The position numbers and the translations under genes are program-made. A model generated the notes under the pieces. That model searched no databases. It had not been told where the DNA came from and saw only the letters and a program-made list of their open reading frames with translations. A stretch of DNA of 55,905 nt from Oscillospiraceae bacterium (GTDB lineage Bacteria > Bacillota > Clostridia > Oscillospirales > Ruminococcaceae), in assembly GCA_017545185.1 (NCBI GenBank), contig JAFWQJ010000076.1, positions 1 through 55,905 on the forward strand, written 5' to 3'. Below are positions 25,204-40,819 of this stretch, one piece after another. The first letter of the stretch is position 1. Every line of letters starts with the position of its first letter.

Positions 25204-26427
25204 TTACTGCAGCGGGATCAGAACGCTTCTGTTCTGCTCCGTGCACATCGTCTTCGCCCGGCGCATTCCGTGGTCAATGGCGATGAACAGGGACGATGCG
25301 GATGTATAGGAATTGACGCTGCAGTGACAGATGCAGCCTGCCGCGGTGAGCTGCACCGTGGCGCTGCGGATCCGGACGGGCTGGGACAGCATCTCAAGGA
25401 TCTTCTGTGCCATGCTGTTTGTCCGGCTTTTCGGGAGCTCCTTGCTGAACAGCACGCAGAGCTCGTCAATGTCCGTGCTGAACACCTCTGCCTGCTTGCC
25501 GAGTGCGGTGACGATCTTTTTTGCGACCTCTGAAACGAATTCATCCGCAAAGTCGCGGCCGTAATTCTCATTGAGGCTCTTGAAGTTATTGAAGTTATAC
25601 ATCACAATCGTCACATCCTCGGCCTTTATGCGTTCATCGAGCTTTTCGTCAAGCGCATAGCGGTTTTTCAGGCCGGTGACGACATTGGTATAGGCGATCT
25701 CGACGGCCTTCTGCCGGATGTTCGCGGTTTTCTGCTTGCTGTTCTGCAGCTTCAGCGCAAACGCGTAGTCACGCTTTTTCGATCTGGCAATTGCATACAG
25801 ACCGGCTGCCATGGTCAGGATCAGGAACAGCAGCACAAACAGGAAGCTCTGTCCGACGCGGCAGAAGAACTGATACGTTGCCTCGTCCGATTTTTCAAAC
25901 AGCGTGTCCAGAGACTGCTTTGCGTCCTCCCGCAGGCGTTCGGTTTCGGCAGTCTGAAGGACGTTCGGCTTCGTGAGCCCGGCCTTTACGGACGAAAGGT
26001 GCTCGGAAATGGTATCGTAGTAGAGATTGACCTTGTTTAGGGATGCATCAAATTCCTGCGGTATGCTCTTGTCGATGTTTGCCATGTTGATCTGACGGAA
26101 TGATTCCGCATTCTCTTTGATTTTGTTCTGACTGGAAAGAACACCGTCAACACTGTCTGAGATCAGCTGCTGGTTGTCGGCATGAAGCTGAATGTTCAGA
26201 ACATTCTGGTTGATGTCCTCAAAGTTGCCGTCGATCTTGGCAATGTAGCTCAGTGCGTCCTCTGCATGCCAGAGGCCGTATCCGGTTTTTGCAAATGCAT
26301 AAATAATGACGACAAGGTTCAGGATCGTCAGCACAATAAACAGGATGGAAAGTGACCGGTATACACCGGGGTTATAGCCTTCCATGACCTGATTTTGTTC
26401 CTGCGTGTTCACCTCTTTGTTTTTCAT
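25204..26427 (-). CDS. Membrane sensor with a degenerate GGDEF domain
   Basis: 407 aa. Two transmembrane helices (about 24-46 and 194-213) flank an extracytoplasmic helical sensor region of about 145 residues. The C-terminal 170 residues have a GGDEF-domain outline (NVVTGLKNRYALDEKL, then FNNFKSLNENYGRDFADEF). The active-site signature is STDIDELCVLF where GG(D/E)EF is expected, and the metal-binding Asp of the D-x-D-x-F-K motif is Asn. It is therefore unlikely to make c-di-GMP and may act as a receptor or scaffold. GGAGG precedes the ATG. Its promoter (26679-26707) is about 250 nt upstream, leaving a long leader. Confidence 0.8.
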   Translation of the reverse strand: MKNKEVNTQEQNQVMEGYNPGVYRSLSILFIVLTILNLVVIIYAFAKTGYGLWHAEDALSYIAKIDGNFEDINQNVLNIQLHADNQQLISDSVDGVLSSQNKIKENAESFRQINMANIDKSIPQEFDASLNKVNLYYDTISEHLSSVKAGLTKPNVLQTAETERLREDAKQSLDTLFEKSDEATYQFFCRVGQSFLFVLLFLILTMAAGLYAIARSKKRDYAFALKLQNSKQKTANIRQKAVEIAYTNVVTGLKNRYALDEKLDERIKAEDVTIVMYNFNNFKSLNENYGRDFADEFVSEVAKKIVTALGKQAEVFSTDIDELCVLFSKELPKSRTNSMAQKILEMLSQPVRIRSATVQLTAAGCICHCSVNSYTSASSLFIAIDHGMRRAKTMCTEQNRSVLIPLQ

Positions 26428-26672
26428 TGTAATATCCTCCGCTCATAAAAATTGATGTATCAGAAGCCAGTGTAACATTGTTTTCCCAGATGAAGCTTTT
26501 GCAAATATAATGCCCGGCTGCGGAAAACCCGCGCCGAAACGGAGTTTTTTTCTTTTTCTCTCAATACGGCGCTGTTCAGCAGACGCACCGCATCGACGTT
26601 ATCACCATAACGCATCACCTCAGATGTACAAAATATTATCATGGCAGTTGAACATTATTAGCCATATTCCCC
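26428..26672 (-). promoter_or_regulatory. Long 5' leader of the GGDEF-like gene
   Basis: About 245 nt lie between the predicted transcription start and the ATG at 26427. They include a small frame on the minus strand (reading MRYGDNVDAVRLLNSAVLRE from 26615), with GAGGTG immediately before its ATG. No known riboswitch consensus was recognised. The frame could encode a small protein or the region could be a structured regulatory RNA. Confidence 0.4.
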
Positions 26673-26678
26673 AATTAT

Positions 26679-26707
26679 ATTATAGCACAATGATATGAAA
26701 ATGTCAA
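26679..26707 (-). promoter_or_regulatory. Perfect consensus promoter facing the GGDEF-like gene
   Basis: Minus strand TTGACA (26702-26707), exactly 17 bp, TATAAT (26679-26684). Confidence 0.8.
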
Positions 26708-26755
26708 TATGGAGAAAGAATTTTCCGGAAAAAAGTTTTTTCCTGCGGCTGCCGT

Positions 26756-26785
26756 GCCGTTCACTCTGAAAAAGGAACCGTTCAC
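26756..26785 (+). promoter_or_regulatory. AgrA/LytTR-type tandem operator upstream of the 149-aa gene
   Basis: Two 9-bp direct repeats, GCCGTTCAC (26756-26764) and ACCGTTCAC (26777-26785), are separated by exactly 12 bp, the spacing of AgrA/LytTR sites. Eleven bp further on, TGGATT (26796-26801) and TATCAT (26819-26824), 17 bp apart, form a weak promoter that would need an activator. The same repeats occur at 29401-29460. Confidence 0.7.
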
Positions 26786-26870
26786 AGGAAGTCTGTGGAT
26801 TTTTTGCCGGGTCTGTGCTATCATAAGAGAAAATAACAAAACGGCATTCAGAGGAGAAAAGGAAACCGAT

Positions 26871-27320
26871 ATGCAAATACTCGAACATCAGTCACTGTAT
26901 CTGAATAATCTGATCTCTTACAAGCTGCATCTTCCGCGGGAAAGGGTCCCCGGGATCATCCGGCATATTCTGGACAATCTCGGCAGTCTCGGCCTGCAGC
27001 CGACCGGGAAAATCCTGTTCACGGAGGATATTCGGCAGCAGAAAAACATGGAGATCCTGATCCCGGTGCAGCCCGATTTTGACCCCTGCCTGCAGTACGG
27101 AAAAAAGGAGATCTTCAAGCTTGTCAATGCCGTATCTGCGCGGCATGAGGGCTGTTTCGCGGAAACAGAAAAGACCGAACAGCAACTGCTGGACTATATC
27201 CGGGACAGAGCCTATCAGATGATCACGCGGCCCTATTACAGCATCGTCCGGCTGGATCCGGACGATACAGGCAGCTGCATCCTTGACATTTATATCGGCG
27301 TCGATTGCAATATCCTGTAA
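26871..27320 (+). CDS. 149-aa protein of unknown function, in the putative LytTR regulon
   Basis: Soluble, without signal peptide or membrane helix. The start at ATG 26871 follows GAGGAGAAAAGG; a longer frame from 26709 would run through the operator and promoter and is rejected. The sequence has a compact alpha/beta outline: LYLNNLISYKLHLPRERVPG, NMEILIPVQPDF, and a C-terminal strand pattern SCILDIYIGVD. The outline recalls GyrI/effector-binding-like or DUF5085-type small proteins, but the resemblance is only by eye and no name is justified. The upstream tandem operator links its expression to the kinase/regulator pair encoded just downstream on the other strand. Confidence 0.7.
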   Translation: MQILEHQSLYLNNLISYKLHLPRERVPGIIRHILDNLGSLGLQPTGKILFTEDIRQQKNMEILIPVQPDFDPCLQYGKKEIFKLVNAVSARHEGCFAETEKTEQQLLDYIRDRAYQMITRPYYSIVRLDPDDTGSCILDIYIGVDCNIL

Positions 27321-27323
27321 AAA

Positions 27324-27357
27324 AACCGCATTTCCGTGTGAAATGCGGTTCTTTTTT
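27324..27357. terminator. Bidirectional terminator
   Basis: 10-bp stem AACCGCATTT/AAATGCGGTT with a 7-nt loop, flanked by A5 and T6. It overlaps the stop codon of the convergent histidine kinase gene. Confidence 0.85.
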
Positions 27358-28645
27358 ATATTTCCGGATTCAGCCAGAGACTGACCTCCAGCGTGAACAG
27401 TCTGTCATCCGCAGAGAGCACTGCCTCTCCGCCGTATTTCTGCGCGGTCTTGACGATGTTCGCAACGCCGAACCCGTGCATATTCTTGTCCTCCTTCGAG
27501 GTCTGGACCTGATTGCCGTTCCGGATCTCAACCTTTTCAAACACCGGATTCGTGATCTTCAGGCAGAAAAGCCCCTGCTGAAAATCGGAATGTATCCCGA
27601 TCTGTTTTGTTTCCTCGCCGGTGTCCTTTGCACAGGCCTCGATCGCATTGTCCAGCGCGTTCGCAAAGATCGTGCAGAGGTCGGCGCTTGTGATGCCGGA
27701 GGTCGGCGCATAGCCGGTGAACACGATCTGCGTGTGATGCTGCACTGCCTTCTCGTTTTTGTCGTCCAGCAGCGCATTCACAATGATGTTTCCCGTGTCA
27801 TAGGTCTTTCGCCGCGAATGGCTCATGCTTTCGATCTCGTCCATATATTCGCAGGCGCGCTGCACCTCGTTTTCGGCCAGCAGACCGCGCAGGCAGAGCA
27901 GGTGATTCCGGAAATCATGCCGGAACGCGCGGAACTCCGCGTATATGTCATTGATCTTCTGATAGTATGCGACCTGATCTTCCAGCTGCACCGCCAGCAG
28001 CTCCGAAATGCGCTTGTGTTCCTTTTCCGCTGCGCTGATCCGGAGGATCCGGGCGATGATATAGGAGATGATCAGAACGACCGGCACGATCAGCATTCTG
28101 GCAATCGGATTCAGCTCCGGAATGACCGTCGTAAACGCAAAAACGGACAGGAAGAACAGAAACACCAGGATCGTCACATACAGCCGCGGCGGGATCAGCG
28201 TCAGACTGTGCATGACGGCTGCGGCACGGTTCTTCCGGCTGATATACAGCAGCAGAAACGCCGTGACAGCGGCTTCCGCGATGCAGGCGGCAATATTCAG
28301 CGGCATCTGTGCGTCCGTAAACAGATGCATCAGATTCGTATAATTCGTGTTCAGGACGAAAGACAGAATGCTGATATACAGCATACTCAGATTCCGCTTC
28401 CGGAAAATGACGGCATAGCATCCCGCCTTCATCAGCATCAGAACAAGGATCAGCAAAAGCCGGATCACGGGCGGGATCTGCTTGCTCGGCAGCAGGAACA
28501 CCAGCTGCGGGACCGCACTGCAGAGCGATGCAAGGCAGAACAGCAGCCTGCTTTTCGTCAGTTCAAAGCCGGCCGCCTTCCGGACAAGAAAAATAAACAT
28601 GATATTCTGCAGCAGCGCAGATACATAATACCCTGCATACAGCAT
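27356..28645 (-). CDS. AgrC-like (HPK10/GHKL) sensor histidine kinase
   Basis: 429 aa. The first 205 residues form about six membrane helices with short loops, as in peptide-sensing AgrC/ComD kinases. The cytoplasmic part has the HPK10-type H-box FRHDFRNHLLCLRG, the N-box NALDNAIEAC and the G-box GFGVANIV in a GHKL ATPase domain. It would autophosphorylate on the His of FRHDF after binding an extracellular ligand and pass phosphate to the regulator encoded three nt upstream. No AgrB-type peptidase and no AgrD-type propeptide are encoded nearby, so the ligand is not obvious; the 10-residue peptide at 29536 is the best local candidate. Confidence 0.9.
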   Translation of the reverse strand: MLYAGYYVSALLQNIMFIFLVRKAAGFELTKSRLLFCLASLCSAVPQLVFLLPSKQIPPVIRLLLILVLMLMKAGCYAVIFRKRNLSMLYISILSFVLNTNYTNLMHLFTDAQMPLNIAACIAEAAVTAFLLLYISRKNRAAAVMHSLTLIPPRLYVTILVFLFFLSVFAFTTVIPELNPIARMLIVPVVLIISYIIARILRISAAEKEHKRISELLAVQLEDQVAYYQKINDIYAEFRAFRHDFRNHLLCLRGLLAENEVQRACEYMDEIESMSHSRRKTYDTGNIIVNALLDDKNEKAVQHHTQIVFTGYAPTSGITSADLCTIFANALDNAIEACAKDTGEETKQIGIHSDFQQGLFCLKITNPVFEKVEIRNGNQVQTSKEDKNMHGFGVANIVKTAQKYGGEAVLSADDRLFTLEVSLWLNPEI

Positions 28646-28648
28646 CTC

Positions 28649-29362
28649 TCAGCACCTGTTTGCAAAGTGATAGCGTTTGATATAATCCTGAAACGCTTTT
28701 TTGAACGGCGTGCGCTTCAGCTTGCTGATGAGTGCTTTCTCCTGATTATCCAGCACGATCATCGTTTCCGTATGCGAAACGACATGCCGGAACCCGACCA
28801 GATAGGTGCGGTGGCTCCGGAAGAACCGGTCCTCCGGCAGCAGGCTCTCAAATTCCGCCAGCGTTTTCTTATAAACAAAGCCTTCCTCTGTCGTCCGTAC
28901 AAAGCAGTATTTGTCGGAAGCCTCCGCATAGATGATATCGTCGATATTGATGCGGCGGCTGAGATCGCCGTCTTTGATCACGATATACTGATCTGTGCTC
29001 TGATCGGAAAGCAGGCCGTCCATTGCGGCAGCCAGCTTTTCCGGATCGACCGGCTTCACCAGAAAGCGATATGCATTGACCTCGAACGTGTCAAACACGA
29101 TATGCGGAAAGCCGGTCAGAAAAATGATCGGCGTGTCAATGCGCGCAGCCCGCAGCTTCCGGGCTGTTTCGAGTCCGTCCAGCTCCTTCATCTGATAATC
29201 CATGAAGATCAGATCCAGATCCTGCGGGAACGCAAGCAGCTCCTTTCCGCCTGTATAATCAGAGTACATGACGGAGAGATTCCGCTTCCGTGCATAGCTG
29301 TCCAGATGGCGCTTCAGAAGGTCGTGCATCGGTAGTTCATCGTCGCAGATTGCAATTCTCAT
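28649..29362 (-). CDS. LytTR response regulator (AgrA-like)
   Basis: 237 aa. The receiver domain covers residues 1-120 with acidic pocket Asp7/Asp8, phosphoacceptor Asp55 (LIFMDYQMKELDG) and the Lys in FLVKPVD. A LytTR DNA-binding domain covers about 130-235 (IIYAEASDKYCFVRT, FFRSHRTYLVGF). LytTR regulators bind 9-bp direct repeats 12 bp apart; such repeats lie right upstream at 29431-29460 and at 26756-26785. GAGGA precedes the ATG. The gene is the first of a two-gene operon with the kinase and is divergent from the tiny peptide gene, an arrangement like agr P2/P3. Confidence 0.92.
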   Translation of the reverse strand: MRIAICDDELPMHDLLKRHLDSYARKRNLSVMYSDYTGGKELLAFPQDLDLIFMDYQMKELDGLETARKLRAARIDTPIIFLTGFPHIVFDTFEVNAYRFLVKPVDPEKLAAAMDGLLSDQSTDQYIVIKDGDLSRRINIDDIIYAEASDKYCFVRTTEEGFVYKKTLAEFESLLPEDRFFRSHRTYLVGFRHVVSHTETMIVLDNQEKALISKLKRTPFKKAFQDYIKRYHFANRC

Positions 29363-29400
29363 ATTCTGTTTTCCTCATCTTTGCTGTGTTGTTTTGTGTG

Positions 29401-29460
29401 TCCGTTCACTCCCGAAAAACGGCAGGAACTACCGTTCATTCCGATAATCCGACAGTTGAC
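29401..29460 (+). promoter_or_regulatory. Three LytTR-type repeats upstream of the tiny-peptide promoter
   Basis: TCCGTTCAC (29401-29409), ACCGTTCAT (29431-29439) and ACAGTTGAC (29452-29460). The second matches the AgrA consensus (W-M-M-GTT-N-R-K) at all nine positions, and it is 12 bp from the third. The third ends 10 bp before the -35 box. Copies 1 and 2 share the longer core GTTCAYTCC. Confidence 0.75.
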
Positions 29461-29470
29461 TCCGTTTGCG

Positions 29471-29499
29471 TTGATTCAGCGCGGTATCCGTGCTATAAT
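29471..29499 (+). promoter_or_regulatory. Promoter of the tiny-peptide transcript
   Basis: TTGATT (29471-29476), 17 bp, TATAAT (29494-29499), directly downstream of the LytTR repeats. Confidence 0.8.
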
Positions 29500-29535
29500 G
29501 CAGTTACAGTCGAACACGGAAAGGAGATGAACAGC

Positions 29536-29568
29536 ATGTTTGATTGGCTTTTGGGCTTATTCGGCTAA
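29536..29568 (+). CDS. 10-residue hydrophobic peptide MFDWLLGLFG
   Basis: ATG 29536 has AAGGAG (29521-29526) 9 nt upstream and the frame ends at TAA 29566-29568. A second ATG at 29527 in frame would add MNS but lies directly against the ribosome-binding site. The peptide is almost entirely hydrophobic, with Phe, Trp and Leu and one Asp. It has no leader, no cysteine and no AgrD-like charged tail. It could be secreted as an unmodified signal, act as a membrane-active toxin or PSM-like peptide, or be a leader peptide. The promoter and ribosome-binding site are better than chance for so short a frame, but the frame is short. Confidence 0.55.
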   Translation: MFDWLLGLFG

Positions 29569-29788
29569 AAAAGTACACCTTCATTATACTAGCACAAATC
29601 CTATATTTTGTCAATAGCATCGCACGACGATACACAGTCTTTTTCGCTTCATTTTTTAGATTTAGCAATAAAAAACATGTCGCACAATTCGCAGCATTCA
29701 TAACAGCAAATATGCAGCTGCAAAAGAATATGTCAAAAAGACAGTCAAAAAGAATACTGCATCCTGTCAGGCTTTCCGGCAGGTTTAC

Positions 29789-29821
29789 AAAACGGCTGCG
29801 GGACTTCCCGCGGCCGTTTTT
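29789..29821 (+). terminator. Strong terminator 1 downstream of the peptide transcript
   Basis: 14-bp stem with one G-U pair (left arm 29789-29802, right arm 29807-29820), ACTT loop, T5. Confidence 0.85.
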
Positions 29822-29884
29822 GTGTGTCCGAAGGAGTTTGTTCTATATTTTTACGATCTGCGCATGGGACAGACTGCATATCAG

Positions 29885-29920
29885 AACAGGCTCACCGGAG
29901 ATCCCGGTGAGCCTGTTTTT
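29885..29920 (+). terminator. Strong terminator 2
   Basis: Perfect 14-bp stem AACAGGCTCACCGG (29885-29898) and complement (29904-29917), AGATC loop, then further T. The 60 nt between terminators 1 and 2 contain GAAGGAG but no clear gene. Confidence 0.85.
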
Positions 29921-29970
29921 GATATCTGAGCTTCCGCAATATCCGCACAATTTTACTGTGCAAAAAAATG

Positions 29971-30003
29971 AAACGCACCGGATCGTTTCCCGGTGCGTTT
30001 TTC
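29971..30003. terminator. Bidirectional terminator 3, shared with the ABC permease gene
   Basis: 10-bp stem AAACGCACCG/CGGTGCGTTT with T-tracts on both strands; it ends the minus-strand transporter operon. Confidence 0.8.
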
Positions 30004-30010
30004 TGAAGGA

Positions 30011-30946
30011 TCAGTAAGCGCTTCGCTTCTGTGTTACGAGGGAATTTCCGGCAGCCAGCAGGAGCAGAACGACGGCCAGGATCAGTGCCCCGGGCACCAG
30101 CTTTGCCGCAACGCCCGGCTGCATCGTGAATGCGCCGCTGTACGGAAATACCTTCTGTGAAAAATTGTAGATGATATTCGCGATGTCATACCGGAAGACC
30201 GGACGGACAAAGAGCAGATATGCGCCGACCAGTGCATAGGCAACCGGATTATGTTTGAACAGAGTCCCGGAGAAGAATCCGAACTCGTAATAAAGCAGCA
30301 TCAGAACCAGCGTGAACGGAATGCTTTTCAGGTATGCGGCGGCTGAAAAACCGTCTGCAATGCGGGTGTATCCTGTCAGTTCGGGATATTCTGCATAGAA
30401 CTGATGCGTGAAATAAGCCTGAATGCCGTATGCAGCCAGAACTGCAGCCGTCAGCATGAGGATCAGCAGCAAATATCCGCTGAGCTGTCTGGAGATCATC
30501 GCGGACTGTTTTCCGAACCGCAGAGAGCTGTAACGGAACGTGCGGTTTTTCTGATCGACGGCACTCCACAGCAGTCCGAAAAACGCGGCAAGAAGCGGAA
30601 TGAATGCCATTTCGCCGGCAAGCAGCAGCGAAACAAGGCGACTGGGCTGCATATAATTCAGGGATTTTCCGATCTCTGCGTAATAGAACGCGACCGGGTT
30701 CTCGATCATACCGCTGTTCTGATCCATCGAGAGAATCTTGTAATCCTGTGCAAGCATAGCCTGCACATCCTCGCCGGCACTTTCTGCGGCCTCGACGGAG
30801 TTCCGGAAATTGATGACCTTCATGCGGGCGTCCTGATGATTCGTATAGCAGATAAACAGTGCAGATGCAAGGAACAGCACAATCATCAGCATCCATAATT
30901 TGGAATACCGGAAATACCGGAAATCATTTTTAAGCTGTTTGAGCAT
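30011..30946 (-). CDS. ABC transporter permease (ABC-2-like)
   Basis: 311 aa with six predicted membrane helices: the first near residues 18-36 (LWMLMIVLFLASALFICY), then a soluble loop of about 75 residues, then five helices from about 105 to 300. The layout is that of ABC-2 permeases used in lantibiotic or bacteriocin immunity and small-peptide export. The start at 30946 has GGAGG 9 nt upstream and lies inside the end of the ATPase gene (17-nt overlap). No substrate can be read from sequence. The position after a secreted four-Cys protein points to self-protection or export. Confidence 0.75.
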   Translation of the reverse strand: MLKQLKNDFRYFRYSKLWMLMIVLFLASALFICYTNHQDARMKVINFRNSVEAAESAGEDVQAMLAQDYKILSMDQNSGMIENPVAFYYAEIGKSLNYMQPSRLVSLLLAGEMAFIPLLAAFFGLLWSAVDQKNRTFRYSSLRFGKQSAMISRQLSGYLLLILMLTAAVLAAYGIQAYFTHQFYAEYPELTGYTRIADGFSAAAYLKSIPFTLVLMLLYYEFGFFSGTLFKHNPVAYALVGAYLLFVRPVFRYDIANIIYNFSQKVFPYSGAFTMQPGVAAKLVPGALILAVVLLLLAAGNSLVTQKRSAY

Positions 30947-31595
30947 GATAGATGTCCTCCAGACTGTTCGCTGCACGTTCTTCGGGTGAGATCTCGGTCA
31001 TGACAGTCTTTCTTTTCACGAAAATATGCTCTGCGACCTTCTCGTAAAATGCAAACTGATGACCTGTCAGAATGATTGTGCAGTTCTTTTTCATTTCGTT
31101 CAGATGCTCTGCGAGATCATCCATCATGTCTACATCCAGACCGTTCGAGATCTCGTCCATGATCAGATATGCCGGCTTCAGCAGATCAGCAAGCGCCAGC
31201 ATGAGCTTTTTGCGCTGTCCGTATGAGTAAGTCTTGACCTTCCGGTTCAAAACGGGATATTCAAGGTAATGTTCTGCGGCCTGCCGGATCTCTTTCCGGC
31301 TGAATTTGCCTTCTGACAGCAGATCCAGATTCTGCATACCGCTGAGATTCTGATAGCAGGGAGAGTCGTCCCAGATGATCAGGCACTGATCCCGCACCTC
31401 GGAGAGAGGCTTTTTATCAAACAGAATGTCGCCCCGGTAGCTTTCCAGCATACCGATGCATTTGAGGAGGGTCGTTTTTCCGCAGCCGTTCTTTCCCATC
31501 AGAAAGCTGATGGAGTTGCCCGGAAACACCGTGTTTGTCGGTTCGTAGATCGCGGTGTTCTTGTATTGTTTCTGAAAATCAACGAGTTCAATCAT
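30930..31595 (-). CDS. ABC transporter ATP-binding protein
   Basis: 221 aa, single ATPase domain: Walker A GKNGCGKTT, Q-loop region IIWDDSPCYQNLSG, signature YSYGQRKKLMLA (YSYGQ in place of LSGGQ), Walker B YLIMDEISNGLD, H-loop LTGHQ. The variant signature is common in the bacteriocin-immunity/ABC-2 group. It pairs with the permease encoded downstream and overlapping. A hairpin in the 75-nt gap from the secreted-protein gene suggests it is co-transcribed at a lower level. Confidence 0.88.
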   Translation of the reverse strand: MIELVDFQKQYKNTAIYEPTNTVFPGNSISFLMGKNGCGKTTLLKCIGMLESYRGDILFDKKPLSEVRDQCLIIWDDSPCYQNLSGMQNLDLLSEGKFSRKEIRQAAEHYLEYPVLNRKVKTYSYGQRKKLMLALADLLKPAYLIMDEISNGLDVDMMDDLAEHLNEMKKNCTIILTGHQFAFYEKVAEHIFVKRKTVMTEISPEERAANSLEDIYHAQTA

Positions 31596-31615
31596 AACTT
31601 TCTCCTAACAGAAGT

Positions 31616-31658
31616 GCAGATCAGTTCCGCAGTTCGGATGAATGCAGAACTGATCTGC
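31616..31658 (-). terminator. Intercistronic hairpin between secreted protein and ABC genes
   Basis: A perfect 12-bp stem (GCAGATCAGTTC at 31616-31627, complement at 31647-31658) with no good T-tract. It is more likely an mRNA-stabilising or partial attenuation element than a full terminator. Confidence 0.55.
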
Positions 31659-31670
31659 CTGTATTCTCAA

Positions 31671-32072
31671 TTAGCCTGCATTCCAGAGGGTCTTGCATCC
31701 GCCGGAGTTGTAGAGCACTTCCTTGTCTCTGAACTTATAGCCGAACGGGATCGAGCAGCCGCCGATGCCGATGTTTGCAGACGGACCGCAGACAGAGACC
31801 CAGTCATGCTCCATCAGGTGCGTATAGGTTCTGGTGACGCCGTATGCATTTGCAAAGAGGCCCTGCGGAGACTGATATGCGGAGCTTTCCGTGATGTTGA
31901 TGCGGCTGTCAACGGTCCAGTAGAAATCTGTTCTGCAGGAGGAGACGCCGCCGATACCGCGCTGGATCCATGCGGAGTACTGCGATGCACTGGCGGTCAT
32001 TGCGCCCATGCTGGCGAGAGTTGCTGCTGCGGCTGCAGAGACAATGAGTTTCTTGAGAAAATTCTTTTTCAT
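31671..32072 (-). CDS. Small secreted four-cysteine protein, candidate bacteriocin or peptide effector
   Basis: 133 aa. A clear signal peptide (residues 1-29, ending GAMTASA) gives a mature protein of about 104 residues with four Cys (SSCRTDFYW, VSVCGPS, IGGCSIP, GGCKTLW), enough for two disulfides, and Gly/Ser-rich loops. The size, secretion and following ABC pair recall lactococcin-972-type and similar secreted bacteriocins, but no family motif was recognised. The start at 32072 has AAAGGAA upstream; a longer frame from 32165 lacks support. Its promoter (32222-32250) is preceded by two LytTR-like repeats, so it may be controlled by the adjacent two-component system. Confidence 0.7.
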   Translation of the reverse strand: MKKNFLKKLIVSAAAAATLASMGAMTASASQYSAWIQRGIGGVSSCRTDFYWTVDSRINITESSAYQSPQGLFANAYGVTRTYTHLMEHDWVSVCGPSANIGIGGCSIPFGYKFRDKEVLYNSGGCKTLWNAG

Positions 32073-32221
32073 AGTGTTCAAATTCCTTTCAGTATGATTT
32101 TGTTTGTGTGTTGTTTTTTTCGTTCTTCGGCGTATGCATTGTACAGTACAGAGCGGAAAATCCATGGCTTTTCCCGGTTCCGTATCGTCCTCTGCAGGAT
32201 CGCTTCCTGAACTGTGACTTC

Positions 32222-32320
32222 ATTATAGCAGGTACAGCCCCGGAATACAAGAAAAAAAGAGTGACCGGGCAAAATGCCGGAGCGAGTTGGATAAGATGAC
32301 ATGTTTCAGGAGTGAACAGC
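32222..32320 (-). promoter_or_regulatory. Promoter and LytTR-like repeats of the secreted-protein operon
   Basis: Minus strand TTGTAT (32245-32250), 17 bp, TATAAT (32222-32227). Upstream, also read on the minus strand, are GCTGTTCAC (32320-32312) and the poorer CCCGGTCAC (32269-32261). Their 51-bp offset equals that of repeats 1 and 3 at the peptide promoter, and the distances to the -35 box agree within 1-2 bp. The longer core TGTTCACTCCTGAAA is nearly that of 29403-29417. Confidence 0.6.
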
Positions 32321-32442
32321 CGCCTGCGCGGGGGACATGCGCGCCGCTGCCGCATAATTGCATCTAAGCTGACTTTGGTGCAATCAGAGAGGGGGGGAAC
32401 ATGCCGGGGAGATAATCCGGCAGTCTGCGCTCTGCCCGGAGC

Positions 32443-32471
32443 TTGCATTCTCCCTTCCGTTCTGATATAAT
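32443..32471 (+). promoter_or_regulatory. Promoter of the ECF sigma factor operon
   Basis: TTGCAT (32443-32448), 17 bp, TATAAT (32466-32471). Confidence 0.7.
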
Positions 32472-32537
32472 AATTTTCAGGAACATGTAACCTGCTGCAA
32501 AGAAAAACCGTCCCAGTATATGAGGAGGTGAGATACC

Positions 32538-33104
32538 TTGGAACAACCAAACGAAGCTGCAATGATCGCGCTGCTGCAGAAGCGGGATGAAACGGCACTG
32601 GAGGCGATCCGGAATGAATACGGAAAGCTGTGCGGCAAGCTGGCATTCGACATCACCGGATGCCGGGAGGATTCAGAGGAATGTGTCAGTGACATGCTGC
32701 TGAAGGTCTGGCAGACGATCCCGCCGAAGCACCCGGATAGCCTGAAAGCGTATCTCATCACGCTGATCAGGCATCTGGCGATCGACCGGTACCATGTGCA
32801 GACCGCGCAGAAACGGGGCGGCACACAGTTCGACGAAGCCCTTGACGAGCTTCAGGATACCCTCGTTTCCGATGAGAATGTCAGCGCTGTCATCGAAAAG
32901 CGTGAACTGACCCGCGCGATCGAGCGGTTTCTGGACACGCTCCCGCCGCAGACCCGCAACGTCTTTATGCGGCGCTATTATATGGCAGACTCCGTCCGCG
33001 GCATCGCGGATGCATATCAGATGAGCGTCAGCGCAGTGAAAATCTCCCTGATGCGGACGCGCCAAAAGCTGAACCGATTTCTGAAAGAGGAGGGATTCCT
33101 TTGA
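32538..33104 (+). CDS. ECF-type RNA polymerase sigma factor
   Basis: 188 aa. Region 2 covers residues 20-90 (DITGCREDSEECVSDMLLKV, then LIRHLAIDRYH). A variable linker follows, then region 4 near 125-185 (LDTLPPQTRNVFMRRYYMAD and a helix-turn-helix in MSVSAVKISLMRTRQKL). It would direct RNA polymerase to a small regulon when released by the anti-sigma protein encoded next. The start is a TTG at 32538 with AGGAGGTG 8 nt upstream; no ATG start fits. The stop overlaps the TTG start of the following gene (TTGA), so the two proteins are probably made in fixed ratio. Confidence 0.9.
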   Translation: MEQPNEAAMIALLQKRDETALEAIRNEYGKLCGKLAFDITGCREDSEECVSDMLLKVWQTIPPKHPDSLKAYLITLIRHLAIDRYHVQTAQKRGGTQFDEALDELQDTLVSDENVSAVIEKRELTRAIERFLDTLPPQTRNVFMRRYYMADSVRGIADAYQMSVSAVKISLMRTRQKLNRFLKEEGFL

Positions 33105-34420
33105 AGCCGCTTGAATTTATGGATGCCCTCAGTGATGTGAACGAGGCGTATGTCCGGCAGATGCTGAACGAAACCGATGCCGATGCACCGGCCGGCGCGC
33201 ACAAAACAGGAGGTGCAATTTTGAATACACCGATCACCTTGAACACCGGCAGCGTTTCCCGGCCGGAGAACGGCAGAAAAGCCGGAACGGATCAGCCGTT
33301 CGGCGGAAAGCTGCGGTATCTGGCTCTGATCGCGAGCGCGGCGGCCTGTATTGCAGGCGTGTTCGGGATCATGAAGCTGCATCCGGGCAGCAGCGAGGAA
33401 AGCATGACCGCAGAGCCGCAGCTCACCGAGGTACAGGAAACACAGACGGAACCGCCGGTCACGCAGCTGACGGAAGCGGAAGCATTGATTTCCGCGACGA
33501 CAAAAACCGAAACAAAACCGAAGTCCGGCACGACCGCGCCCGTCACTGCGCAGACAGTCCCCGGGACGGCCGCAGCGGAAACCGGAGCGGTCACCGCAGG
33601 CACACAGGCGCAGACCGCTGCGCAGGCGGCCGCACAGACAATGCCGGATGAGACAACAGCGGCGCCGCGCAGTACGACAACAACTGCAAAAACGACCCGA
33701 ACCACGACGACAACGACCACCCTTCCGACAGATGAAAACGGAATCCCGATCCGGCCGGAGGAAACCGAAACGACTGCAGCAGCATGGGAGCCGATCGTCA
33801 CAATTCCGTATGAACAGCCGTATCTGCTCGGCGATGTGGATACAGACGGAGACATTACGCTGCTGGATTTCCTGCTCGCTGCCCGCGAATACTACATGGA
33901 AGAAGTCTGCCGCCAGGCAGGGCTGGTGCTGGATGCTGAAGCATGTGACAGAGCCAATGCTGACCGCTGGCAGCGGCCGTCCGATTATGCAGTTATCCTG
34001 GATCATAACAGAATCCCGCAGCATAATCTGTTTGTCGATTATATTGATGCGGAAGCGATCCGGGATGTTGCGATCATCCGCGCATTTCTGGGCGGTCCGG
34101 ATGTGCGCTGCGAGGATTATATCAGCGTCTCCGAAACCGAACACAGCTGGAATTACGGAATGGCAGAATATGAACCGGCACTCGCACAGTTTTTCGGTGC
34201 CCCGCCGGAAGGGAAATACACAAGCACTGTTGACGTTTACGGCGCACAGATCATCAGCGATGACGTTCCCGAAGCATTCCGAAACTTCTACAATTCACTT
34301 TATACGATCCATGAATTCGGTGCCGGATGGAATGATGTGGAATTCAACGTCGGGACATGGTCTGACGAAGAATTTGCGCAGAAAATGGACGAGCTGCGCG
34401 CGATCCTTGCAGAAAACTGA
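33101..34420 (+). CDS. Membrane anti-sigma-like protein with an extracellular dockerin-like segment
   Basis: 439 aa, TTG start with GAGGAGGG upstream. Residues 1-65 are cytoplasmic and begin with MKPLEFMDALSDVNEAYV, a pattern seen in anti-sigma proteins paired with ECF factors in Ruminococcus. One transmembrane helix (about 72-92) is followed by a Thr/Ala-rich stretch (95-225) that probably spans the wall. A dockerin/EF-hand-like motif follows, LLGDVDTDGDITLLDFLLAA (about 243-262), and a C-terminal domain with unknown fold. The layout suggests that something outside, perhaps a cohesin or a substrate on the surface, controls the sigma factor. This is inferred from the topology. Confidence 0.75.
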   Translation: MKPLEFMDALSDVNEAYVRQMLNETDADAPAGAHKTGGAILNTPITLNTGSVSRPENGRKAGTDQPFGGKLRYLALIASAAACIAGVFGIMKLHPGSSEESMTAEPQLTEVQETQTEPPVTQLTEAEALISATTKTETKPKSGTTAPVTAQTVPGTAAAETGAVTAGTQAQTAAQAAAQTMPDETTAAPRSTTTTAKTTRTTTTTTTLPTDENGIPIRPEETETTAAAWEPIVTIPYEQPYLLGDVDTDGDITLLDFLLAAREYYMEEVCRQAGLVLDAEACDRANADRWQRPSDYAVILDHNRIPQHNLFVDYIDAEAIRDVAIIRAFLGGPDVRCEDYISVSETEHSWNYGMAEYEPALAQFFGAPPEGKYTSTVDVYGAQIISDDVPEAFRNFYNSLYTIHEFGAGWNDVEFNVGTWSDEEFAQKMDELRAILAEN

Positions 34421-37156: not shown

Positions 37157-40100
37157 ATGACTTTTAAGACAACCAGACTTCTCGCTGCACTTCTGAGCCT
37201 GTCGCTGATGAGCTCCAATGTTCCGGCGATTTCCGCAGGCGCAGAAAGCAGCACCGCACCGTATCCCTACACGCTTTTTGCAGCTTCCGCTGACGACGGC
37301 GCGATCTCGTCAACTGCGGGGAATGTCTGCCTGAACGGCAGCATTGCTGCGAACGGTACGGTAACCACAGCAGGTACGCTCAACATCAACGGCACCGAAA
37401 CAGAACATGCTGAAGAAGAGATGATCTACCTGTTCAACAAGCTTGACCGTCAGTACTTTTCGGACGATCTTGTTGACACACACGATGCAGATTATACATT
37501 CAGCAGCATCAATCTTCCGATCAGTGTCCCGACTGTCGTTCAGGGCAGCGCGGATATGACCGGAAACATCAACCTCAGCACCGGATTCAAGGCGCTGGAG
37601 GATATCCGTTTCACCGGTGACTCCCAGAACATCACCAATGCGGTCCTGTTTTCCAAATACGGCGACATTGTTCTCGAGGGTCAGAATGTCAGCGTCAGCG
37701 GCCTGATCTACGCGCCGTTCGGAACGGTGAACATTTCGGCACAGAACCTGAACCTGAACAATGTGATCGTGATCGCGGACAGCATTGTCCTGGATGCACC
37801 GAATGTCAATGCAAACTATAACAGCAGCATGGCTGCATTCATCGGCAATGAATCCGAACCGTTTGAAGTTCCGTTCGAGGAATGGAAATATCTGAAGGAT
37901 ACCGACGGCGACGTTCTGCCGGATCTGATCGAAAAGGAGATCGGAACGGATCCGCTGAATGCCGATACGGACGGCGATCTTCTCCCGGACGGCTATGAGT
38001 ATACGTCCCTCCGTACAAATCCGCTTGCGGCCGACTCCGATGATAACGGCGTCTCCGATTTTGACGAGGATTTTGATAACGATTCTCTGACAAACGGCGA
38101 GGAGTATGCAGCAGGAACCGATCCCTATGTCAAAGATACCGACGGCGACACGCTGTCTGACGGCGACGAGATCCACACCTATCTGACTGACCCGCTGGTC
38201 GTTGATACCGATCAGGACGGTCTGGACGATGCGGATGAGGATTACTTCGGCACGGATCCGAATAATCCCGATACCGACGGAAACGGCATTCCGGACGGCG
38301 ACGAAAAGCGCGATCAGACCTTTGTTCATCAGGTCGAAAATGCAGACTGCGCCGTCACGGAAGTCCGCGTGCAGTTCATGGGCACCGGCAATATCCAGAA
38401 GTGCACCGAGATCGAAAGCGTCATGAACAAGGATATCATCTGCAGCGACGTTGTCGGTCTGGTCGGCGAACCGTTCTCGATCGAAACGAAGTCCGAGTTT
38501 GAGCAGGCTGTCATCACATTCAAGATGAATCCGGATAAGCTCGGCGACACCGCGTTTGACGATCTGCTGTTCCTCTGGTACGACGAAGCAAACAGCGAGT
38601 TTGTCGAGATCGAAACGCAGTTTGATGCCGCGGACCATGAGGTCAGCATGGAGACCACGCACTTCAGCAAGTACATGGTCGTTGACAGAACCAAGTGGTT
38701 TGAGGCCTGGGCTAAGACGTTCAACTACAATCCGGGTTCGTCCAGCTCTTATGCACCGACCTATCATTACAACTCGGTTCTTGCGATTGACTGCTCCGGC
38801 AGCATGAACAGCAATGACCCGATCATCACGAAAACGGTCAACTCTCCTGCAGATGCAGAGCACGCGCATACCTGCGGCAGAATCAAGGCGGCTGACGGCT
38901 TCATTGACAATATGAACAGCGGCGACAAGGCTGCGATCGTCCGGTTCACCGGCTCTGCAACCGTTGCACAGGCTATGACTTCGGACAAGGCGCTGCTGAA
39001 GCGCGCGGTCCAGTCGATCTCCAGCAGCGGCAACACCAATTTCACCGCAGCAATCACGACTTCGATCTCTGCATTTGACGCGGCAGACCTTTCCAATGTC
39101 AATATGAAAAACAGAATCATTCTGCTGACGGACGGCGAAAGCTCTGTTTCCAATGCGACCCTCGATCAGGCAAATAGCAAGAATATCAAGATCTACACGA
39201 TCGGTCTGGGACGCGATTCCTACGATCAGATCCTGAAGGACATCGCGAACTACACCGGCGGTGAGTTCTACAAGGCATATACCGCATCCGAGCTTGTTGA
39301 TATCTACACGGAAATCGGCATCGGCGGTGATTTTGACACGACGGATACCGACGGTGACGGCCTGTATGACGCTGTCGAAGCTGCCGGCATCCGAATCCAG
39401 AACGGTACTGTCATCTCCGGCTGCGATCCGACCAAACGGGATACCGACAATGACGGCCTTGAGGACGGTCAGGAGATCGACCCGACGATCAGATGGAAGG
39501 CAAAGCACTACTATCCTTCCGATGTGCCGGAATCCGCAATTGACAAGGAATACTATTTCGTGATGAAATCGAACCCGGTTGACGGCGACGATTCCGACCA
39601 TGACGGCTATTCCGATCTGTTCGACCCGGATCCCTCCAATTACGAGGATTACAGCTTCCTGGACAACGAGATCCTTTATATCGGCATTTCCGATCCGTCC
39701 ATGGGCTATATGGCACCGCTGGAAGCAACCTCCGGCAGTATTTCCAAAGCAACCGATTATGACGTCAACGGCGGCGGTCAGTATTTCAGATTCAAGTGGA
39801 CCGGCGCAGGCTACAAGATCGCGCCTGTGGCGTATGAGAGCAGCAGCAAGGTCATCTCTGCACATGACAACGGCGGCTATTACACCGTCACGGTCGAAAC
39901 CGACTCGAACAAGACCGAGCAGATCTGGGAGATCGCACCTTACGGCACGCCCGATGACGACGGCTTCTACAGCTGCGACGGCATGGTCTTCCGCAACAAG
40001 TCGCTGAATGTTTACACCGCATCGCTCAATCCGCTTTATCTGTCCTCTGCAAACGGTCTGAGCCTGTCCGGCTCCAAGTCCGAAAACAACAGGGTAAAGG

Positions 40101-40819
40101 TCTATTCCCCGTTCAACTGGACAAGATTCGGTGAGATGTATCTGAATCACCTCGGATGGGAATCCACCACGGTTCCGTGGAACGCACTGCAGAACTACGA
40201 ACACAATGTCAGCATCGGTATTGACCGCACCAACAACGTGGTGAATTACAAAGGCCATGATCTGCTGGTCTATCAGCACGGCGGCAATTTCCCGCAGCTT
40301 TATTTCAATCAGGTCACAATGGACGGCGTCTGCTGTGAGATCATGGGAACCTATAATGCACTCGTCATGAAAGATGTTCCTGTTGATTTCTTCAAGCTGG
40401 CTGTTGAATTTGAAGTGAATGCAACCGGCATCTACTTCGGAACCGGCGGCAGCGGCTGCTGGGGCAGCGATCCGTATCTGATCGACAACTGCCTGGATGC
40501 TTACCATGTTTCCTATACGACCGTTGATATGGATGATTACGACAGCTATACGGACGGCTGCAATGCATTCGATGCAGAACTGATGAACGGCGTGAGCGGC
40601 ATCTTCTCCTATCACTGGCCGAAGCTCGGAATCTATGCAGGCATTCACACCTATGCTGAAGTTTATGACGCTGCGAATGGCACAACCCCTATCAGAACAT
40701 TTAACAGATACAGCGACACTGAGAAAAAAGACAGTCCGTATGACTATGCATCCACCGATGCTGCAATGAAGCATTCGGTGAATATGGGGCATTTCATGGT
40801 CGGATATGTTCTCAACTGA
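37157..40819 (+). CDS. Giant secreted modular protein: beta-repeat, type-3 repeats, vWA, lectin-like and C39-like domains
   Basis: 1220 aa. Signal peptide 1-31. Residues 35-230 are the beta-repeat module shared with the 23492-24943 protein (GLIYAPFGTVNISAQNLNLN). Thrombospondin-type-3 Ca repeats occupy 250-385 (DTDGDLLPDGYE and similar). A vWA domain covers 540-725, with MIDAS residues in IDCSGSMNS and LLTDGES. More type-3 repeats lie at 728-832, then a beta-trefoil-like stretch at about 840-990. The last 200 residues resemble a C39-like papain-fold peptidase, with Cys1059/1060 in DGVCCEIMGTYNAL and His1212 in MGHFMVGY. The fold assignments after 840 are by eye. It could be an adhesin or a surface-delivered toxin; a small membrane-protein gene follows 31 nt later. 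Confidence 0.8.
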   Translation: MTFKTTRLLAALLSLSLMSSNVPAISAGAESSTAPYPYTLFAASADDGAISSTAGNVCLNGSIAANGTVTTAGTLNINGTETEHAEEEMIYLFNKLDRQYFSDDLVDTHDADYTFSSINLPISVPTVVQGSADMTGNINLSTGFKALEDIRFTGDSQNITNAVLFSKYGDIVLEGQNVSVSGLIYAPFGTVNISAQNLNLNNVIVIADSIVLDAPNVNANYNSSMAAFIGNESEPFEVPFEEWKYLKDTDGDVLPDLIEKEIGTDPLNADTDGDLLPDGYEYTSLRTNPLAADSDDNGVSDFDEDFDNDSLTNGEEYAAGTDPYVKDTDGDTLSDGDEIHTYLTDPLVVDTDQDGLDDADEDYFGTDPNNPDTDGNGIPDGDEKRDQTFVHQVENADCAVTEVRVQFMGTGNIQKCTEIESVMNKDIICSDVVGLVGEPFSIETKSEFEQAVITFKMNPDKLGDTAFDDLLFLWYDEANSEFVEIETQFDAADHEVSMETTHFSKYMVVDRTKWFEAWAKTFNYNPGSSSSYAPTYHYNSVLAIDCSGSMNSNDPIITKTVNSPADAEHAHTCGRIKAADGFIDNMNSGDKAAIVRFTGSATVAQAMTSDKALLKRAVQSISSSGNTNFTAAITTSISAFDAADLSNVNMKNRIILLTDGESSVSNATLDQANSKNIKIYTIGLGRDSYDQILKDIANYTGGEFYKAYTASELVDIYTEIGIGGDFDTTDTDGDGLYDAVEAAGIRIQNGTVISGCDPTKRDTDNDGLEDGQEIDPTIRWKAKHYYPSDVPESAIDKEYYFVMKSNPVDGDDSDHDGYSDLFDPDPSNYEDYSFLDNEILYIGISDPSMGYMAPLEATSGSISKATDYDVNGGGQYFRFKWTGAGYKIAPVAYESSSKVISAHDNGGYYTVTVETDSNKTEQIWEIAPYGTPDDDGFYSCDGMVFRNKSLNVYTASLNPLYLSSANGLSLSGSKSENNRVKVYSPFNWTRFGEMYLNHLGWESTTVPWNALQNYEHNVSIGIDRTNNVVNYKGHDLLVYQHGGNFPQLYFNQVTMDGVCCEIMGTYNALVMKDVPVDFFKLAVEFEVNATGIYFGTGGSGCWGSDPYLIDNCLDAYHVSYTTVDMDDYDSYTDGCNAFDAELMNGVSGIFSYHWPKLGIYAGIHTYAEVYDAANGTTPIRTFNRYSDTEKKDSPYDYASTDAAMKHSVNMGHFMVGYVLN

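Follow-up and report, generated by a model that had tools for sequence, protein, structure and literature searches.

We analysed a 55,905-nucleotide stretch of DNA (hereafter the window), contig C77 (JAFWQJ010000076.1) of an Oscillospiraceae draft genome designated G000 (3.6 Mb in 94 contigs, 95.18% complete). Genes for a LytTR response regulator and an AgrC-type kinase lie there in tandem on the minus strand (combined span 27356-29362), opposite a plus-strand open reading frame (ORF) of ten codons. These three genes probably constitute an autoinduction circuit, in which a leaderless aromatic peptide is read by the membrane kinase and its regulator. The peptide gene and the operator in front of it are well supported; translation, export, activation of the kinase, binding by the regulator and function of the outputs are inferred parts of what we consider the best explanation. 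An earlier prediction, made from the letters of the window (hereafter the original prediction), had proposed here a compact peptide-sensing regulon with a new kind of signal and a bacteriocin-like output. Conservation of the ORF, the geometry of operators and -10 hexamers, the absence of an AgrB match, covariation of peptide and kinase, and secreted outputs in some relatives all support this proposal.

The regulator (28649-29362, minus strand) matches the Pfam families Response_reg (2.9e-15) and LytTR (3.5e-18), its best full-length match of solved structure being ComE (4cbv, 1.5e-16). The kinase (27356-28645, minus strand) has a hydrophobic sensor half and a GHKL catalytic half (Pfam HATPase_c_5, 4e-22; SPOB_a, 2.6e-7). 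When its profile was compared with the PDB, the sole match at E<=0.001 was the kinase module of Staphylococcus aureus AgrC (6e52, 1e-9), in the catalytic half. The AlphaFold2 model (predicted local distance difference test, pLDDT, 82.5; predicted template modelling score, pTM, 0.50) is helical in its N-terminal half. This sensor half, composed of predicted hydrophobic helices, is weakly conserved (mean identity 0.178 vs 0.401). The combination of AgrC-type kinase and LytTR regulator typical of agr is therefore present. To the left of the pair lies a gene for a DUF5085-like protein of the GyrI fold (plus strand), and to the right a gene for a secreted four-cysteine protein followed by an ATP-binding cassette (ABC) pair (32072-30011, minus strand).

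Relatives of the locus were collected with the regulator: 36 matched at E<=1e-20 among 100 relatives searched, and 225 at E<=1e-35 among 396 genomes of the family. The clade considered below comprises 25 loci in 24 genomes, namely 22 regulators scoring about 280 bits or more (21 genomes of the family search) and those of G001, G025 and G082; the profile was built from eight clade members and the score cut was set post hoc at a break in the scores. Clustering of the neighbourhoods recovered the regulator and the kinase at 25/25 loci and the GyrI-like gene at 16/25. Beyond these three genes and frames antisense to regulator or kinase, nothing recurs in more than 4/25 loci, some of the available stretches being short. 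The tree does not establish that the peptide-linked regulators arose once: it needs two changes, and 12% of bootstrap trees need one.

The peptide gene of the window (29536-29568, plus strand) encodes MFDWLLGLFG behind the ribosome-binding site AAGGAGA, and an ORF for the 10-residue peptide named in the original prediction is thereby confirmed. Short aromatic ORFs were found at 21 of the 25 clade loci, 20 of them clear and one (L055) ambiguous. Twenty adjoin the regulator on the divergent strand, while that of L050 is placed between the regulator and kinase genes and diverges from the latter. Their products, for example MFDWLWDLFG, MWDWIFGIFG, MWRYIWQIIFK, MWRYIWQIIFG, MSWIDHILHLIFG, MGFWDCIWYWIFG and MLDWFDWWGW, span 7-16 residues, the shortest being MFGWWDW (L143), and contain 16.9% Trp and 16.0% Phe among the 237 residues after Met.

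A strict scan, requiring ATG, a Shine-Dalgarno sequence, 7-16 codons, aromatic and hydrophobic content and a position on the divergent strand within 450 bp, gave matches at 15 of the 25 loci, compared with 0.03 expected from resampling. Fourteen of these are the named ORFs; the fifteenth, MFVHSFFC (L055), is not one of them and looks like chance. No match appeared next to any of 30 control regulators or on the regulator strand of the same 25 regions. Outside these regions the scan found four matches in clade loci, two of which are further peptide genes (L049, L050). The composition rule had been fixed before loci L142-L155 were read, and 8 of these 14 match. Moreover, four close pairs of ORFs, two of which are within-genome copies, differ at 13 codons, and 9 of these differences are synonymous, against a null mean of 3.2 (P 0.0016); locus L146 contains two tandem peptide genes (2431-2475 and 2517-2561) which encode identical 14 residues and differ by synonymous changes only. 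One more peptide gene was found away from the regulator. In G025 the regulator has no adjoining peptide gene, and an operator without mismatch elsewhere precedes an ORF for MSIWDWLAGLFG, followed by a secreted protein. G023 contains three units of operator, peptide gene and secreted-protein gene within 7 kb, with near-identical copies of the peptide.

The promoter region of the peptide gene bears three 11-bp half-sites (starts 29402, 29432 and 29453; 29402-29463, plus strand), which form the best tandem and the best trio of the window, followed by the promoter TTGATT-17-TATAAT (29471-29499, plus strand). Together with the Pfam domains, these boxes confirm that a regulator-kinase operon diverges from a repeat-bearing promoter, as had been predicted. 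Before the GyrI-like gene stands another tandem operator (26757-26788, plus strand; boxes CCGTTCACTCT/CCGTTCACAGG); its predicted spacing of 21 bp was correct, the true starts being 26757/26778 instead of 26756/26777. The third operator is a trio in front of the secreted-protein gene (32258-32319, minus strand; boxes 32309-32319, 32279-32289 and 32258-32268), which shares the layout of 30 + 21 bp with the peptide promoter and is followed by the -10 hexamer TATAAT at 32222-32227. The original prediction had rated the repeats here as a poorer match; in fact the tandem 32279/32258 (minus strand) ranks third among window tandems and the trio second among window trios. At all three promoters a -10-like hexamer (TATCAT, TATAAT, TATAAT) starts exactly 30 bp past the last box. 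A third box 30 bp upstream occurs at the peptide promoter (score 1.0) and the secreted-protein promoter (0.92) of the window and at the peptide promoters of L047 (0.82) and L049 (0.84).

Exact copies of the proposed shared core GTTCAYTCC lie at 29404, 29434 and 32309-32317 (minus strand), but none at 26760, where it had also been placed; positions 26759-26767 read GTTCACTCT. Taken alone, this 9-mer is weak evidence (3 seen vs 0.82 expected, with at least 3 in 6 of 100 shuffles). The tandem is strong evidence: a pattern fitted to two tandem sites found only those two at <=2 mismatches, and none in 100 shuffles. Conservation of the 21-bp tandem in related genomes, suggested earlier as a check, is seen: boxes near CCGTTCACTCC recur with period 21 at 23 sites, whereas each of 17 other spacings yields 0-3, and a looser cut gives 30 such sites vs 3-7 in five resamples. 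Since the matrix was drawn from sites of the window and near relatives, the spacing control carries more weight than the number of sites. In a set of 31 sites (window site 32258, L182, L204 and L205 added; L049:2928 left out as overlapping another site, L143:7233 and L154:1722 as apparently intragenic, and L196 likewise omitted), a TATAAT-like hexamer (at least 5/6 identical) lies exactly 30 bp past the second box in 20 and 29-31 bp past it in 26. This distance played no part in choosing the sites. The hexamer is off-distance in L148 (25) and L150 (33) and missing from L048:15373, L149 and L182, the last having TATAAT at about +60, by eye. The tandem operator also precedes the orthologous GyrI-like gene in L047 (17981) and L048 (15330).

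The regulator-kinase operon itself is likely transcribed from TTGACA-17-TAGTAT (29586-29614, minus strand), and a weaker candidate (29736-29709) is likewise situated beyond the peptide gene. The kinase mRNA would therefore begin with a leader antisense to the mini-gene, a likely feature overlooked in the original prediction, which was right about the kinase-regulator pair. Promoters are placed beyond the peptide gene at 7 of the 25 clade loci, including that of the window; many others stand directly before the regulator.

The gene at 26871-27320 (plus strand), previously listed as unknown, encodes a protein of 149 residues whose GyrI-like fold had been missed. It matches DUF5085 (PF16895) at 6e-5 and 24.0 bits, under the curated cut-off of 30, and its AlphaFold2 model (pLDDT 92.7) displays the paired beta-alpha-beta-beta arrangement of the GyrI-like fold. 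Foldseek matched it to the albicidin-resistance protein STM3175 (2e-6), CTR107 with rhodamine, EcmrR, CtaZ with closthioamide, SbmC/GyrI and BmrR. As these proteins bind aromatic hydrophobic ligands, binding of a peptide rich in Trp or Phe is a reasonable inference, and the window protein, a proposed intracellular peptide binder, probably holds the hydrophobic peptide inside the cell, judging by its modelled fold. It shares this fold with the binders STM3175, CtaZ, EcmrR and SbmC, but differs from them in standing alone without a DNA-binding domain, in its low identity to them (9-15%) and in being tied to a kinase-regulator locus. In G1064, no GyrI-like gene was found in 6.1 kb around the regulator, where the contig stops about 0.5 kb beyond the peptide gene; on another contig, an operator without mismatch precedes a GyrI-like gene. 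Searches with the DUF5085-like profile gave matches in 6/394 genomes of the order, 5/30 of the genus and 12/391 of the class. The DUF5085-like genes of other Clostridia (L108-L112) have short neighbours that look like precursor genes and, by eye, carry GG-like leaders; in several cases ABC transporters accompany them. This suggests that the GyrI-fold family has a general role in peptide operons. The open-access literature mentions DUF5085 in connection with type VII secretion and with staphylococcal and streptococcal genomes and secretomes. A separate observation concerns the region left of the operator of the GyrI-like gene: about 50 bp away, a perfect TTGACA-17-TATAAT with TG before the -10 (26707-26679, minus strand) faces a GGDEF gene (25204-26427).

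Next, we compared divergence of the peptides with that of the kinases, taking the first 205 kinase residues as the sensor. Over 22 peptide-kinase pairs, which include ORFs accepted by eye and the unlinked peptide of G025, peptide distance tracks sensor distance when the catalytic half is held fixed (partial r 0.485, 0 of 5000 permutations), and equally when the regulator is (0.504). Given the sensor, neither the catalytic half (-0.05, P 0.68) nor the regulator (-0.06) adds anything. After removal of five near relatives (n=17) the partial r is 0.345 (P 0.0004). The link between the GyrI-like protein and the peptide vanishes once the sensor is fixed (n=16 loci, 0.10, P 0.20).

These relations bear on what the peptide does. 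It might be an effector, that is, a leaderless membrane-active or antibacterial peptide resembling a tiny phenol-soluble modulin, with the kinase sensing something else and the GyrI-like protein conferring immunity. The aromatic hydrophobic composition would suit such a role, the titles of their structure entries connect GyrI-like proteins such as STM3175 and CtaZ with resistance to toxic aromatic compounds, and in other Clostridia DUF5085-like genes adjoin the precursor-like genes mentioned above. Nevertheless, we regard an effector as unlikely: peptides as short as the seven residues of L143 could not span a membrane, the peptide sequence follows the sensor half and not, with the sensor fixed, the GyrI-like protein, and some relatives possess separate secreted hydrolases as outputs. 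Covariation with the sensor half is equally expected if the peptide is not secreted at all and acts inside the cell as a small modulator, or feedback subunit, of the kinase. That no exporter recurs favours this possibility and speaks against a secreted signal. On the other hand, the three near-identical copies in G023, each followed by a gene for a secreted protein, look signal-like, as does the rapid change between species; neither point is decisive, and we hold an intracellular modulator to be improbable as well, ranking it just after the effector.

A signal of this kind would differ from agr pheromones in needing no maturation. A search for AgrB with PF04647 gave nothing in G000, which is 95% complete, in agreement with the original prediction, and nothing in 13 further clade genomes (14/24 in total); the other 10 have 21 copies, all on contigs other than that of the regulator. 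The AgrD profiles PF05931 and TIGR04223 have no match in G000, but they match none of 14 control genomes either. No exporter, protease or maturase recurs in more than 4/25 clade loci, C39 exporters not having been profile-searched specifically. The peptide could still be the precursor of a modified, for instance cross-linked, product; aromatic residues are compatible with cross-linking, and L146 has its two identical tandem copies. This is very unlikely, since no maturation enzyme recurs in more than 4 of the 25 loci, some of which are represented by short stretches. A Trp/Phe attenuator leader is suggested by the short Trp- and Phe-rich ORF with its ribosome-binding site and by the secreted-protein genes that follow it in L049 and L182, but we practically dismiss it: the next likely real plus-strand gene of the window starts 3 kb away at 32538, behind a hairpin with a U-tract near 29790-29822 (found by folding, not listed by the pattern scan), the next gene in L047 has its own operator, the peptide gene is duplicated in tandem in L146, and no known RNA element of Rfam matches within 26000-33000.

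The outputs behind the operator are diverse. In the window, the third operator precedes a small secreted four-cysteine protein (31671-32072, minus strand), a proposed bacteriocin-like output, for which Pfam gave no match at E values up to 1 and which resembles the lactococcin 972 family TIGR01653 at E 0.0034 and 17.6 bits, under the cut-off of 32.1. It is followed on the same strand by an ABC transporter ATPase (30930-31595; PF00005, 1.8e-17) and a presumed ABC permease (30011-30946), so regarded from its position behind the ATPase, no Pfam or NCBIfam family matching it above cut-off. Operator targets in G023 are an NlpC/P60-like protein (below cut-off) with a ricin-type lectin domain, an Amidase_5 protein and a peptidoglycan-binding protein. 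In G933 and G1147 they are M15 and M23 peptidases that carry wall-binding domains or lectin domains scoring below threshold, in G001, G1064 and G1071 small secreted proteins without family, and in G1085 a YezG-like immunity protein. Less telling are a membrane protein (G1058), large secreted proteins (G025, G1097) and an asparagine-synthase-like protein of G025, whose operator site lacks a -10. The outputs would serve interbacterial killing. As a separate matter, at L201:1068-1337 (contig C159 of G001), with the same site on C15 (L193), an operator-like tandem with two mismatches stands before the gene for a 90-residue hydrophobic protein, which by eye resembles a circular bacteriocin precursor.

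Several observations weigh against the proposed circuit. No such ORF adjoins the regulator at loci L048, L142, L150 and L151, and in L142 and L151 the operator directly precedes another gene. The ambiguity of L055 stems from two overlapping short frames on one weak ribosome-binding site. The strict rule excludes the ORFs of L051, L052, L055, L147, L148 and L152, which we accepted on visual inspection, and, on account of its position, that of L050. No operator reaches threshold in L051, L052, L055, L095, L096, L097 and L153, and that of L154 is a weak match inside a gene. The GyrI-like gene is missing from 9/25 loci, and G023 has none in its genome. Finally, the covariation test removes phylogeny only partly, and genome-wide operator matches in G000 at <=3 mismatches number 13, compared with 14 in the reversed control. 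For this last reason we claim only the local sites and no further targets.

Taken together, the circuit would operate as follows. The divergent mini-gene would be translated directly into the final linear peptide of 10 residues, to which the AgrC-type membrane kinase and the LytTR regulator would respond. Once phosphorylated, the regulator would bind the 11-bp boxes that immediately precede the -35 hexamer in tandem, at a spacing of 21 bp. It would thereby activate the peptide gene itself, which amounts to positive feedback, together with the GyrI-fold gene, whose product would probably bind the peptide in the cell as a buffer or for self-protection, and the small secreted bacteriocin-like protein with its ABC pair. 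In the subclade of the window, the leader of the kinase operon, probably antisense to the peptide mRNA, may set a threshold.

We lean, with some reserve, towards viewing these loci as a separate class of cell-to-cell signalling, in which aromatic peptides of 7-16 residues, made in final form without propeptide, protease or dedicated exporter, are read at the membrane by AgrC-type kinases whose sensor half evolves fast, frequently alongside a GyrI-fold protein that binds the peptide inside the cell, and control interbacterial killing through wall hydrolases and small bacteriocin-like proteins. If so, a peptide without any maturation step would suffice to drive sensors of the Agr type, an exception to the usual pattern of two-component peptide pheromones, which are released from propeptides by cleavage. 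The signal-receptor pairs of these gut Ruminococcaceae-like bacteria would be quick to synthesise and test, and the peptides might serve to induce genes for wall hydrolases and bacteriocin-like proteins specifically. Mini-genes of 7-16 codons, which annotation skips, could likewise be traced through the operator that precedes them.

A second set of six regulators, including that of L180, has a Trp-rich ORF of 14-23 residues with a ribosome-binding site behind the kinase in five cases (L059:7507-7563, L062:9951-10007, L063:2886-2948, L054:5941-5985 and L172:7045-7116, with products such as MEYLDCSFKWLEWLFPWL and MKCDMFAWIWKWFM; none was found in L180). This suggests that the signalling class is wider still. 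At L156, whose regulator was counted as a control yet groups with L052 in the tree, a short ORF for MWERIWGKGGGH with a ribosome-binding site also lies behind the kinase (2489-2527).

Further genes were noted in the surroundings. Near the third operator begins a region (32538-34420, plus strand) encoding a sigma factor of the extracytoplasmic function (ECF) type and, behind it, another protein, marked by a stretch rich in Thr, that may regulate it. Relatives of a large secreted window protein of VWA type (37157-40819) are encoded immediately behind the system in L050 (3673-6081) and L096 (7089-7901), and by eye the protein at L150:2175-4667 resembles the window protein too. A search of three window proteins against defence systems gave no match.

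How does the locus compare with known systems? In agr the genes are laid out as AgrBDCA. An AgrC-type GHKL kinase, a LytTR regulator, 21-bp tandem repeats and divergent promoters are common to agr and the present locus; the differences are that the window genome has no AgrB match and that the proposed signal has 10 residues and no Cys. The locus would work like agr, yet we do not class it as agr because AgrB was looked for and not found. The ComCDE/BlpRH circuits likewise possess a ComE-like LytTR regulator and share wall-hydrolase outputs with some relatives of our locus; in pneumococcal fratricide, wall hydrolases are among the outputs of ComCDE-type circuits. They differ from the ten-codon ORF, which lacks a (double-glycine) leader and is accompanied by no recurring exporter. 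In the open-access literature we found no description of a system combining all these parts.

The peptide itself is closest to leaderless communication peptides such as SIP with its receptor RopB and NIP with NrpR (PMC10518010, PMC13361665, PMC12186490). As far as these accounts go, their receptors are cytosolic RRNPPA regulators of RopB type, in place of which we find an AgrC-type kinase and a LytTR regulator; the terms "histidine kinase" and "two-component" do not occur in the main text of PMC10518010. A Pfam scan of nine window genes detected no RopB/Rgg-type receptor beside the peptide gene, the genome as a whole not having been searched with a RopB profile. The size of 8-10 residues without leader applies to the window peptide (10), while some clade members, ranging over 7-16, fall outside it. 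Going by the same accounts, both kinds of system share a short hydrophobic leaderless peptide, encoded divergently from its receptor gene, variable between species and accompanied nearby by genes whose products are secreted or antimicrobial.

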